A stretch of 64,000 nt of DNA from positions 125,077 to 189,076 of the forward strand of contig CAMYOL010000029.1 in NCBI GenBank assembly GCA_947260005.1. Reading direction: 5' to 3'. How positions within the stretch are numbered: the stretch's first letter is position 1; the number at the start of each line of letters is the position of its first letter. Shown one piece after another: positions 1 through 46,318 of this stretch. A model generated the notes under the pieces. It made no database searches. It had not been told where the DNA came from and worked only from the letters and a program-made list of their open reading frames with translations. Origin of the DNA: an uncultured Ectothiorhodospiraceae bacterium (GTDB lineage Bacteria > Pseudomonadota > Gammaproteobacteria > UBA6429 > Thiohalophilaceae). The translations under genes were made by a program, and so were the position numbers.

Positions 1-1262
1 GTCCGCCCAGTGAGTAAGGCCGCCTCATTAACCACGTTTTCCAGATCTGCACCGGAGAAACCCACGGTCAATGCAGCCAGACGTTTAAGGTCGACGTCAC
101 TGGCCAACGGCACCTTGCGAGAATGTATCTTTAATATGGCCAGACGCGCCTTTCTATCCGGTAAATCAAGTACCACTTTGCGATCAAATCGCCCGGGTCG
201 TAATAAAGCCGAATCCAGTACATCAGGTCGATTGGTCGCCGCCAGCACCACGACGGCTTCATGCTCGGTAAAACCGTCCATTTCATTTAAGATCTGATTG
301 AGTGTTTGTTCACGTTCATCATGCCCTCCGCCTAAACCCGTGCCGCGGGCACGACCCACTGAATCAATCTCATCAATAAATAATATAGACGGTGCATTTT
401 TCTTGGCATCGGTAAACATATCACGCACCCGTGACGCCCCTACACCCACAAACATTTCCACAAACTCTGAGCCACTAATACTAAAAAACGGCACATCGGC
501 CTCACCGGCCATCGCCTTGGCCAACATGGTCTTGCCGGTACCCGGTGGACCCATAAGTAAAATACCACGTGGCACTTTGGCTCCCAATTTTTGATAACGC
601 TCCGGGTTTATCAGATATGACGTAATTTCACGTAGGTCGGCCTTGGCATTGTCCAACCCAGCCACATCATCAAAAGTCAGTTTAATACTGCCTTTTTGGT
701 AACGCTTGGCTTTGGATTTACCAAAACCAAACAAGCTGTCTCCAGTAGACATACGTTCTGAAAATTTACGGCTGATATAAAAAAATATCCAAATAAAAAA
801 TATCCACGGTAGGATGGATATGATCATTTGCACCCACCAGGCGGCTTCTTGTGGTTTGGCCTCGACATCAACCTGGTGTTTTTCTAATAAGGGGATAAGG
901 CCAGGGTCATCCACTGGGGGTAAGGTGGAGGTAAATTTCGCAATCCGCGCCGGGCGAGTACTTTCCTCTACCGTATCGATGCCCATCGCAGGACTGCGTA
1001 ATGTGCCAATGATCCGTTCACCTTGCAGGGTCACCTTTGCCACTTCATTGGCCCGTATCTTGGCTTTGAATTCACTATAAGATATCTGGGTCTTGACCTG
1101 ATCACGGAATAACTGCCCATAGTAGAAATAGACAAGCACGCTGATCATGATGACCCAAGCCATATACCGCCATGTTATCGGTGGCATTTGCGGTTGCTCT
1201 GGACCTGGCCGCTGCCCACGTTGATTTTCAGGTTCTTTATCGTTGTTCATTTCGGTTGTCAT
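1..1262 (-). CDS. ftsH: ATP-dependent zinc metalloprotease FtsH (partial, C-terminus outside window)
   Basis: Membrane-anchored AAA+ protease that degrades misfolded and regulatory membrane and cytosolic proteins. The visible 420 codons show two membrane helices (about residues 33-50 and 143-163) flanking a periplasmic domain, then the AAA module with Walker A GPPGTGKT (238-245), Walker B ILFIDEID and the second region of homology ending in [11 protein letters not shown]. The HEXGH zinc site lies beyond the window edge and cannot be checked. The start chosen is the first in-frame ATG; a second ATG four codons later (1250) is also possible. The N-terminus has a proline- and glutamine-rich extension of about 30 residues before the first helix. 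Identity is secure from the AAA motifs and the two-helix topology. Confidence 0.96.
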
Positions 1263-42686: not shown

Positions 42687-43364
42687 CTACTCGGTAATCA
42701 TGATTTTATGGATTGAGCGGATATTACGCACCCATGGGGACCATTTTCGAAGGTCCTGGGGCAAATCCGCTATGGCCGATTTGGCCGAATGTACTGAGTT
42801 ATAGGAGCCGTATACCAGTGCATACCAGCGCTCACCCTGACGCATCGAACTATAATATCCAGCTTTACCGCTCAGATTATTGAGTGAGTAGTATTTCTCA
42901 ATGAGCTCTTTATTCGTGCTGCTGGCAAGTTGAAGCGTGTAATGCTTAGGATTTTGCGAAGCCACCCATTCCTGGGGACCGGATATTAACGAGGTAACCG
43001 ACAAAGGTTGTTGGGTCGCCTGCACCCCATTGGTATTTAACCGTTGGTAGGCCTCGACCATACCCTGGCGAGCCGCCATGGTTAACCAGTAGTTTGACAT
43101 GTTGTTATCTGCATTGACGCCATCGCCCTGCTGGTATAACAAGGCAAGATTGTATTGTGCGATCGCATCACCATCGTTCGCCAACTGTTGCCATAGATTG
43201 ACCGCTGTTTTGAAATCACCTTTTGCCTGGGCATCCAGGGCCTGAAGTGCGCTTGCCATTGAAAACGGGGTATAAAATAAACTAAATAAAACAATGAACG
43301 CCGCTAAATTAAACACAGGGAACCCACATCGATCTCTTAACTCAGGTAATTCAGTGCCCAACAT
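42687..43364 (-). CDS. Sel1-repeat and SPOR-domain protein
   Basis: A 225-residue exported or membrane-anchored protein. A hydrophobic segment lies at about 18-37; two Sel1-like units follow (KGDFKTAVNLWQQLANDGD, DNNMSNYWLTMAARQG); the C-terminal 80 residues form a SPOR domain (HYTLQLASS, ERWYALVYGSY) that binds denuded septal peptidoglycan. Suggests a role in cell division or envelope. It lies directly upstream of the APE promoter region but is not part of that operon. Confidence 0.85.
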   Translation of the reverse strand: MLGTELPELRDRCGFPVFNLAAFIVLFSLFYTPFSMASALQALDAQAKGDFKTAVNLWQQLANDGDAIAQYNLALLYQQGDGVNADNNMSNYWLTMAARQGMVEAYQRLNTNGVQATQQPLSVTSLISGPQEWVASQNPKHYTLQLASSTNKELIEKYYSLNNLSGKAGYYSSMRQGERWYALVYGSYNSVHSAKSAIADLPQDLRKWSPWVRNIRSIHKIMITE

Positions 43365-43407: not shown

Positions 43408-43848
43408 TCAGCAATTCTCAATTAAAGTCTCTTTGTAGTTTAGCCGAGTACACGCATTAAGCCAGTCATACAAAAGCAGGTTACATTGTCTTTTTTCATC
43501 AGGCACAAACATACCTTCATTTGGATAAGGGTATTTATACTGAATACTGTGTTGACCTTGATAACTGATTACTTCGGCCAGGCGAGCATCTTGATAAATC
43601 CGGATGGTAAAAACTACATCGGCCAGCAACACATCTGTCTCGCTAAATTTCTGGGATATTTTAAGTAGTATCGTATAACGCGTGTCTTCCAGTATTTCGA
43701 GCTCAACAGGATAGCAACCTAACTCAAATTGAACGCGTTCCATTTCCAATAAGCGCGTCTCATCCAGCATCGCCATAAGCGCACTGTAGTTTCGCTCGAA
43801 ATACCACATCGGATCTCGCAATCGATCATTTTTAATAGAATGAGACAT
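43408..43848 (-). CDS. DUF1249 family protein (YqiB-like)
   Basis: A 146-residue soluble protein. Typical DUF1249 features are the opening LRDPMWYFERNYSALMAML and the C-terminal NEGMFVPDEKRQCNLLLYDW. The chosen ATG has AGGTG upstream. The family is found in gammaproteobacteria, with no known biochemical role. It lies 43 bases upstream of the SPOR gene in the same direction. Confidence 0.9.
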   Translation of the reverse strand: MSHSIKNDRLRDPMWYFERNYSALMAMLDETRLLEMERVQFELGCYPVELEILEDTRYTILLKISQKFSETDVLLADVVFTIRIYQDARLAEVISYQGQHSIQYKYPYPNEGMFVPDEKRQCNLLLYDWLNACTRLNYKETLIENC

Positions 43849-44109
43849 CGGCACCTATTATCGATATTTGTTATTAACTCATGTCGGCAAGTTAACCGTT
43901 AAACTTGAAACTTTTATGAATTTATTATTTTCTGAGTGTGATTGTCAATCTTGACATTAACGGAAAGGAAAAATATTCCAGACTCTCATACCCATTACAC
44001 CCATTTTAAAATTATAAACAGGTATAACGGGCGAAAATCAAAATATTATTATAAGAATTCCCCAATCCAGGGGAGTAACTGTGTATTTATTATCAAATAA
44101 GCAGTAAAT

Positions 44110-44760
44110 TTAATTAAAAATCGGTTCCAAACGAGAAAGATCATTAATCACTTTCCATTCGCCTTCTCCGGTTTGCACCCGAAGCTCCCAGGCTTCAAGA
44201 CGATCAAGGTATTCACGCGGGTCTATATTATCTGAACGTAACTTGGTTACATTCACAGCAATCACTTGATATCCTGTCAGCTGTAACGGTATATCGCGAA
44301 CAAAACCTTTTTTCAGTTCTTCTTTTAAATCAGAAAATATTAATATGGTTTTCTTACGGGTACCAGCCTCGTTTAAATATTCAATGGCCTGTAAAATTCC
44401 TCCGGTTATGTCGGTATAAGAACTCGGCTTGGCGGTTTTAATAAACTTGTCGATAACATCACGAAATTTCCGTTTTTGCTTATTCGTCATACTGGGACGA
44501 TCATCAAAAAACTGCTTATAGACAATATCTTTTTCACTAAAGCTCCCAGTATCTACTCTGGCAACCGCAAAAGTATCGCCTGGGTTGAGCTTTGATAAAG
44601 TGAAATTAATAATTTTTTGAGCTTGCAACAACTCTTTAGTGTAAGTACCCGAGGTATCGACCAACATGTAAACGCCCTGATTATTTGGGCCCGTCGGTTG
44701 TTCTGAACAACTTAACAAAAAAAATGCGAATAAAATAAGTATGAATTTTCTAAAGCTCAT
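44110..44760 (-). CDS. von Willebrand A-type lipoprotein
   Basis: A 216-residue lipoprotein: lipobox LLSC (cysteine 18) followed by a VWA fold with a complete MIDAS: Asp35-Thr-Ser37-Gly-Thr39, Thr116 (SYTD) and Asp144 (FSDLKEE). Such domains bind a metal ion and a partner protein. It is encoded with an 11-base overlap after a large membrane protein, so the two are made together. The lipid anchor puts the VWA domain in the periplasm. Function unknown. Confidence 0.88.
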   Translation of the reverse strand: MSFRKFILILFAFFLLSCSEQPTGPNNQGVYMLVDTSGTYTKELLQAQKIINFTLSKLNPGDTFAVARVDTGSFSEKDIVYKQFFDDRPSMTNKQKRKFRDVIDKFIKTAKPSSYTDITGGILQAIEYLNEAGTRKKTILIFSDLKEELKKGFVRDIPLQLTGYQVIAVNVTKLRSDNIDPREYLDRLEAWELRVQTGEGEWKVINDLSRLEPIFN

Positions 44761-46213
44761 TACTTGCTCCCTTTTTTAAGAATACTGATGAGGCATCAGT
44801 AGCCGCATCGTCTTTGGCGTGTTTCGATTTTATTATTCGTTCAATCCACAGCGGTCCAAATATAATTAAATCATATATTTGTACCAGTGAATTTGAGAAA
44901 AAACGCACGACATTTCCGATCAAACGTAAGATCCAGGCTATTGCTCTTAATGTTCCAACACCCATCAAACCAAATACCGTACGCATAGAATGCACAAAAG
45001 TCTCAAGTGGAATTGCAACAAACATTAATGCAAAGGGTAAGACAAAACCCATTCCCATTTGCGCAACGGTTGTGATCCATAAATAACTATTAGTTGCATC
45101 GGCATAACCTCCTTCAGTCGTACCCGTTAACGCCGCCACAACTTTAGAATCATCTTCCATTAACATTTCGCGCATAAAGGCCAACCCAGCTTCGACCAAC
45201 GCCAGGAATAGGAGGATAGAGAAAAACACCCACACCAGACGCAAACGCACCTTATCATTTAATGCGCCTATCACCGGAAACAATCGGGTGATCCGTAATG
45301 TTTCCATTAAAAACAAACCCATGGCCAATTCAACCAGGATAATGACCATTGCGGCAATATTATTTATCGCAAAACCCATTATCTCACTGGTACCACCGAC
45401 CATCTCAGCCATCGGACGAGCTATTAAATTAAAATTAATAAAAGCGCCACCAATGGCTATGGCAAGTACAAGTAGTGAAATAAAAAATTGAGTTAGCGAG
45501 GAAGAAGATAAACTGCGTACCGCACGATCGGTCTTAGAAATAATATTTTCGTATTCTTCCATATGACGATCGATAGTCGTTGAACGCGCCAGTAAGCTGG
45601 TGACATTTTTATCAACCTGCCCTAGCACACTCTTTACTTTACGCCAGTGTGGCATCATCGTTTTTAAATGTTCATGACGTTTATGACTTGATTTGCGATA
45701 AGCCTCAATCGCCTGGGTATTGGCCTTGACCATCGAAATATGGATATCTTCCAGAATGCTCGCCACCATCGGATCTTTACCAGGTATTTTTGCTACCGCA
45801 TCGACGGCTTTAACCCAGGCTGGGGGTTCCGGTGGCACTTCGGTACTTTCTTTATAATCATCATCGATGATAGTGATTTCTTCGCTCAACTGGCGATGCA
45901 AGGCCGGATATTCCGATAAATCTCGGCGAACGGTCCCATCCACTCGATCGAATTCGCGTTCTATGATCCGTTCAACGGCTTCACGTCCCTGTTCTAATAA
46001 CACTTCACGATTACGTTGATTAAGTCGATCTTCAGCACCCATCACCGCTCGCGACGTCAGGCGCATGGCGTTATGAATCACTCGGCTCACTGAAATAATA
46101 GCCAAATGAGCTGGCGAGCGAGCAAAGTACATAATTGCCACAATACCAACAACCCAGATCAACCCTGCTAAAAAGGGATTCGGCACAATCAAAAATATGT
46201 CATTAAAACTCAT
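44750..46213 (-). CDS. Uncharacterised polytopic membrane protein with long coiled region
   Basis: A 487-residue protein. Helix 1 is at about 13-30; a charged, helical stretch of some 200 residues follows (40-235, many heptad-like positions, likely coiled coil); then about five further helices (around 240-262, 280-305, 326-348, 378-405, 415-435) end in a basic tail. No enzyme motif. AAGGAG lies before the ATG. Coupled to the VWA lipoprotein gene. Not recognised as any named family. Confidence 0.85.
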   Translation of the reverse strand: MSFNDIFLIVPNPFLAGLIWVVGIVAIMYFARSPAHLAIISVSRVIHNAMRLTSRAVMGAEDRLNQRNREVLLEQGREAVERIIEREFDRVDGTVRRDLSEYPALHRQLSEEITIIDDDYKESTEVPPEPPAWVKAVDAVAKIPGKDPMVASILEDIHISMVKANTQAIEAYRKSSHKRHEHLKTMMPHWRKVKSVLGQVDKNVTSLLARSTTIDRHMEEYENIISKTDRAVRSLSSSSLTQFFISLLVLAIAIGGAFINFNLIARPMAEMVGGTSEIMGFAINNIAAMVIILVELAMGLFLMETLRITRLFPVIGALNDKVRLRLVWVFFSILLFLALVEAGLAFMREMLMEDDSKVVAALTGTTEGGYADATNSYLWITTVAQMGMGFVLPFALMFVAIPLETFVHSMRTVFGLMGVGTLRAIAWILRLIGNVVRFFSNSLVQIYDLIIFGPLWIERIIKSKHAKDDAATDASSVFLKKGASNEL

Positions 46214-46249
46214 TCATTATCTCCTTCAAGGACAACGGTATTCCCCCTG

Positions 46250-46318
46250 CTCGGCAGGAAGTCTAAGGCTGCATTGGGCTGCGTAACTGCCGAGTGGTTC
46301 ACATATCCAAAATGGATA
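46250..46318 (-). promoter_or_regulatory. Structured leader upstream of the membrane/VWA pair
   Basis: On the minus strand a perfect 6-bp hairpin (TATCCA, loop TTT, TGGATA; 46304-46318) is followed by an 8-bp stem CTCGGCAG/CTGCCGAG (46287-46294 with 46250-46257) closing a 29-base region with the direct repeat GCAGCC. Then comes CAGGGGGAATACCG. It lies between fliA and the membrane gene. It could be a leader RNA or protein-binding site; it does not match a riboswitch class I know. Confidence 0.4.

Follow-up and report, generated by a model that had tools for sequence, protein, structure and literature searches.

A conserved gene pair encoding a membrane protein and a VWA lipoprotein, proposed to form an envelope device in Proteobacteria

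In Bce modules, a membrane transporter is both the sensor and the target of the system (PMC10314905). Another described system, the proteobacterial dedicated sortase system (TIGR03785, TIGR03787 and TIGR03788), resembles the genes studied here in combining a VWA protein with a kinase and a regulator of its own. Here we describe a pair of genes encoding a membrane protein, P0001, and a VWA lipoprotein, P0002, located in a 64,000-nucleotide stretch of DNA from an uncultured Ectothiorhodospiraceae bacterium. This whole stretch is referred to below as the window. Both open reading frames, their coordinates and their overlap were re-read from the window sequence and agree with the original prediction (Table 1). 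A literature search revealed nothing specific on the pair.

Table 1. Features of the locus (window coordinates) and of P0001 (residue numbers).
Feature	Position	Strand	Basis
P0001, 487 aa inner-membrane protein	44750-46213	-	ORF and translation
P0002, 216 aa VWA lipoprotein	44110-44760	-	ORF and translation
P0001/P0002 gene overlap, 11 bases	44750-44760	-	sequence
P0001 ribosome-binding site AAGGAGA	46220-46226	-	sequence; kept in relatives
-10-like hexamer TAGACT, fixed spacing (TANNNT in clade)	46260-46265	-	clade comparison
Conserved upstream element TGTGAACCACTCGGCAGTT, proposed activator site	46285-46303	-	22 clade members
Candidate weak terminator 3' of P0002	44059-44074	-	pattern scan, near chance level
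P0001 TM1	residues ~13-31		hydropathy and AlphaFold model
P0001 long helical part, putatively cytoplasmic	residues ~33-240		hydropathy and AlphaFold model
P0001 TM2-TM5	residues ~243-261, 285-303, 326-344, 380-402		hydropathy
P0001 amphipathic C-terminal part with conserved YD...PL			

The two proteins and their distribution

P0002 encodes a signal peptide followed by the lipobox LLSC, with the cysteine at position 18, and a set of MIDAS residues (D35-T-S37-G-T39, T116/T119 and D144) in which Thr replaces the last Ser of the DxSxS motif. Judged from these residues, the metal site is nearly but not strictly canonical. C18, D35 and D144 are identical in all 31 members aligned, and the earlier description of P0002 as a lipid-anchored module with a metal site is borne out by the lipobox and the MIDAS residues. 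The AlphaFold model (pLDDT 80) has the Rossmann-type fold of VWA domains, with a Foldseek E-value of 4e-7 against VWA and a Z score of 16.0 (rmsd 2.5, 161 aligned) against a VWA chain (VIA). The only Pfam match, VWA_2, reaches 23.7 bits, below the cut-off of 27. Although it stays under this curated cut-off, P0002 is, by predicted fold and metal site, a VWA protein.

According to hydropathy and the structural model, P0001 contains five hydrophobic segments, the first two of which are separated by a helical stretch of about 200 residues. By the positive-inside rule, the long helical part and the C terminus would lie in the cytoplasm, and the periplasmic loops would be short. The AlphaFold model is all helical and weak (pLDDT 66), and a structure search with it matched no known fold. 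Matches of the model to TTYH (E 0.05) were set aside because of the weakness of the model, and matches of the P0001 profile to angiotensin receptors (E ~1e-4) were taken as chance resulting from membrane composition. Two acidic positions in the predicted periplasmic loops are strongly conserved among the 83 copies that have a partner with a MIDAS motif: E270 in the first loop is kept in 79/83, and an acidic residue at position 349 (E or D), beside R348 in the second loop, in 83/83. E270 is present in only three of eight P0001 copies lacking a partner; these copies are diverged everywhere, and its loss from them gives only a hint of a role as MIDAS ligand.

The only match of P0001 in Pfam and NCBIfam is DUF7341, at 23.7 bits and below the cut-off of 27. 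No curated Pfam or NCBIfam cut-off was reached by either protein, nor by the wider family of both in further scans, in line with the original prediction that neither is covered by a recognised family. Searches with the PADLOC defence families, including Zorya, gave no match up to an E-value of 1, and no copies of the pair were found in phage and plasmid collections. A defence system or a mobile element was rejected on these grounds.

P0001 was found in 47/96 relatives. Furthermore, it is present in 53 of the 369 gammaproteobacterial genomes sampled, and beyond the Gammaproteobacteria it occurs in one family, in many of its members. P0002 lies directly downstream in 85 of 93 non-redundant P0001 copies, 83 of which have a partner with the MIDAS motif, and both genes are on the same strand in all 94 loci where both were found. 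The tight coupling of the two genes and their co-occurrence in other genomes, on which the original prediction had staked its proposal, are thereby confirmed. The gene junction in relatives is mostly an overlap of 4 or 1 bases or a short gap, and in two genomes (G338 and G140) duplicated P0001 copies each have their own P0002. In the tree of 93 sequences, the eight copies for which no partner was detected sit on long branches. The pair is a real two-gene unit, chromosomal as far as seen.

Two individual loci deserve mention. Genome G325, which has a pair linked to a two-component system (see below), also carries a second, diverged P0001 (L099, 8994-11146), and the overlapping lipoprotein gene next to it has lost the MIDAS residues. 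In G408 (C7:253556-254899) P0001 is in pieces with several internal stops, i.e. decayed; intact copies are common in the family concerned. In the window itself, fliA and chemotaxis genes are located upstream of the pair. On the 3' side, genes for a DUF1249 protein (43408-43854) and a Sel1/SPOR-domain protein (42687-43364) follow, an order shared by most of the window's lineage.

Promoter elements and linked two-component genes

A structured leader had been proposed upstream of P0001. In folding, the 185-nt gap does not stand out from its shuffled versions (z -1.08, with 27 of 200 shuffles as good); it also matches no Rfam family, and a structured leader RNA was discarded on both grounds. The conserved feature of this region is a promoter-like DNA element, which in the window's clade reads TGTGAACC...GGCGGTT-N19-TANNNT. 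Allowing up to five mismatches, TGTGAACCRNTNGGCGGTTTTT and a TANNNT at constant spacing from it were found together in 22 clade members and in none of the shuffles. TGTGAACCRNTNGGCGGTTTTT mostly lies 78 to 112 bases upstream of the start codon, the distance being 157-175 bases in three cases. Among the genomes tested, a pattern search found an exact match of the element only at 46260-46303 on the minus strand of the window.

In several other families, a PhoB/OmpR-like regulator and a kinase are encoded beside the pair. A profile search found the regulator in 12/369 genomes, all of which carry P0001 (Fisher p 2e-11), although these loci belong to one clade and are therefore not independent of each other. 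The regulator gene adjoins P0001 in ten of these genomes and lies within 8 kb of it in the other two. It is divergent from P0001, co-directional and upstream (L104), co-directional and downstream (L076), or some kilobases away (L075 and L137). The 11 P0001 sequences tested from loci with a linked two-component system (TCS) form one clade with SH-aLRT 100 and no TCS-free member in the tree of 93. A sample of 259 genomes from the phylum yielded no copy of the regulator. The linked kinase and regulator are absent from the window's genome and from most carriers of P0001; thus, the TCS cannot be essential to whatever the pair does.

The linked kinases have two N-terminal transmembrane helices joined by a very short loop and almost no periplasmic part, and no sensing domain was recognised in them. 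As judged from sequence, this architecture is of the type called intramembrane-sensing. Having hardly any periplasmic domain, such a kinase would need its input to be supplied by another membrane protein or by the membrane itself.

Upstream of P0001 in the TCS-linked loci we found TTCACNNATTTTTCAC, a direct repeat of the TTCAC-N6-TTCAC type with an 11-base period, followed after about 10 bases by a -10-like hexamer. This layout of box and -10 hexamer is that of PhoB-type activation. With up to three mismatches, TTCACNNATTTTTCAC occurs upstream of P0001 in 12/12 TCS-linked loci versus 4/82 others; with up to two, the counts are 8/12 versus 0/82. The box precedes P0001 whatever the gene order, and was absent upstream of the regulator gene in L104, L075, L137 and L076. 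It is rare genome-wide, and in G091, G132, G252 and G325 its only exact copy is the one in the P0001 promoter. One further exact box, followed by a good -10 hexamer (TTCACCGATTTTTCAC-N10-TATAAA), is found in G302 (L168 ~1500-2067, G302:C109), where it precedes a gene for a small secreted protein. The predicted box suggests that the regulator activates the promoter of the pair. It differs from the element of the window's clade, and in the window's lineage another regulator would drive the promoter.

Other genes were also seen near the pair. Genes for a STAS protein, an anti-sigma-type kinase (HATPase_c_2) and an HDOD-SpoIIE phosphatase adjoin the P0001-linked kinase in G132 and G252, forming a partner-switching set (L134, 336-2946; L133, 4023-6619). 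A gene for a LonB-like AAA protease lies slightly upstream of the pair in four loci from two families (L087, L110, L111 and L144). One cluster from the neighbourhood survey (c18) consisted of antisense shadow ORFs and was rejected. The remaining recurrent neighbours (ABC ATPases, LysR and HDOD proteins) were judged generic, with no link to the pair.

Possible functions of the pair

Tentatively, we propose that the pair is an envelope device, in which a periplasmic VWA sensor or effector is docked on a membrane transducer, and which has been wired to a TCS in one clade; we regard this as quite possible rather than probable. P0002 would be secreted and lipidated at Cys18, and its metal site in the periplasm would bind either a ligand or P0001 itself, at one of its acidic residues. 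Candidate residues are the conserved E270 and E/D349. P0001 may then relay the change via its membrane bundle to the long helical part on the cytoplasmic side. An activator-type promoter of its own would allow the device to be made on demand, and in the TCS-linked clade the pair would probably be both sensor and target of the dedicated kinase, as in Bce modules. A point against docking of P0002 on P0001 comes from the residue at position +2 of the lipoprotein, which is Ser in 40 of 80 members and Asp in only six. By the E. coli +2 rule, P0002 may be bound for the outer membrane, beyond the reach of the short loops of P0001. Nor can adjacency and the regulator box separate a sensor from a mere target.

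A stronger form of this proposal holds that the pair is a new class of transmembrane signalling device. In it, the periplasmic VWA lipoprotein gates a five-helix transducer belonging to no known family, and it is this transducer and not the kinase that senses for the dedicated TCS, which in turn controls the promoter of the device. We consider this form unlikely.

The pair may also be an effector only and sense nothing: P0002 would be the accessory subunit of a transporter, a channel or a complex for envelope maintenance, in the manner of the VWA alpha2-delta subunit of calcium channels, and the TCS would simply turn the complex on. Such a role is conceivable, although we are inclined to doubt it. 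Most carriers manage with no linked kinase, and in non-divergent loci the box stands upstream of the pair and not of the regulator; both observations favour an effector, as do the charged and proline residues conserved in the membrane part of P0001. However, a linked kinase of the architecture described above needs membrane-derived input, and no transporter or channel family in Pfam or NCBIfam matched P0001.

The original prediction spoke of a signalling or assembly device. Its signalling half has gained support from the dedicated TCS and the regulator box in one clade, and its assembly half has fared worse. VWA partners often act in assembly, and P0002 could, like those working with MoxR ATPases, help P0001 or a metalloenzyme to mature or to be inserted. 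The strict coupling of the two genes would fit such a role. However, no MoxR-type ATPase or enzyme recurs beside the pair in 58 loci, and P0002 is predicted to be periplasmic, where there is no ATP. An assembly factor is therefore improbable.

An accessory role in the flagellum (in the motor, in chemotaxis or in passage through the envelope) with expression alongside fliA, the link hinted at in the original prediction, is very improbable: the pair adjoins fliA and flagellin is commoner in P0001 carriers than in other genomes (40/53 versus 160/316, p 0.0009), but this mild enrichment may stem from genome size and lineage, the block fliA-P0001-P0002-DUF1249-SPOR/Sel1 is common only to the window's lineage, P0001 copies in another class have unrelated gene surroundings, the operon has a conserved promoter element of its own, and 13/53 carriers lack flagellin, including the single-contig genomes G058, G121, G348 and G322, so that a flagellar function cannot be general.

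Should the envelope device proposed above exist, it would be present, together with a promoter of its own, in many Proteobacteria and would so far have escaped description. The use of VWA metal sites for periplasmic sensing on behalf of an intramembrane-type kinase would then be new. The proposal also gives an orphan family of kinases and regulators a likely target. Furthermore, the TCS-linked clade would offer a ready genetic readout, its kinase, regulator and predicted box being suited to a reporter.

Relation to known systems

P0002, the kinase and the regulator have weak best or near-best NCBIfam matches to the families of the dedicated sortase system. Their scores are far below the cut-offs (14.7 against 551.65, 44.5 against 612.2 and 38.6 against 335.7), and no sortase is linked to the TCS: a sortase is encoded in four of the 12 TCS-linked genomes, always on another contig. 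The dedicated sortase system was dismissed on both counts. Elsewhere in the window's genome (G000:C51, 64249-70035), genes for a sortase, a kinase-like ATPase and a VWA protein of 740 aa form a cluster. This is probably a dedicated sortase system of the proteobacterial kind and is unconnected with the pair.

The calcium-channel alpha2-delta subunit, like other adaptor domains with a MIDAS, offers a second comparison: as predicted from the fold of P0002, a VWA metal site would lie outside the membrane beside a multi-helix partner. However, the membrane partners have no sequence relationship, and a channel role of P0001 is hypothetical. Proteins of the MotA/TolQ/ExbB and ZorA type resemble the predicted P0001 in that a transmembrane helix precedes a large helical region in the cytoplasm, with more transmembrane helices after it. 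P0001 differs from them in that it matches none of these families, and in that its partner is a lipoprotein and not a transmembrane protein with an essential Asp.

The Bce type (BceAB-BceRS) differs in that a Bce module has an ABC transporter, whereas neither P0001 nor P0002 matched any ABC family and the pair includes no ATPase. The hosts of the pair are furthermore Gram-negative, and kinase and regulator are both missing from the window's genome. In our assessment, the pair is not a Bce module and would at most work in a Bce-like manner in one clade, the TCS-linked one, where a kinase without a sensing domain is encoded side by side with the membrane protein and inherited along with it, and where a predicted regulator box is placed at the promoter of the membrane protein operon.
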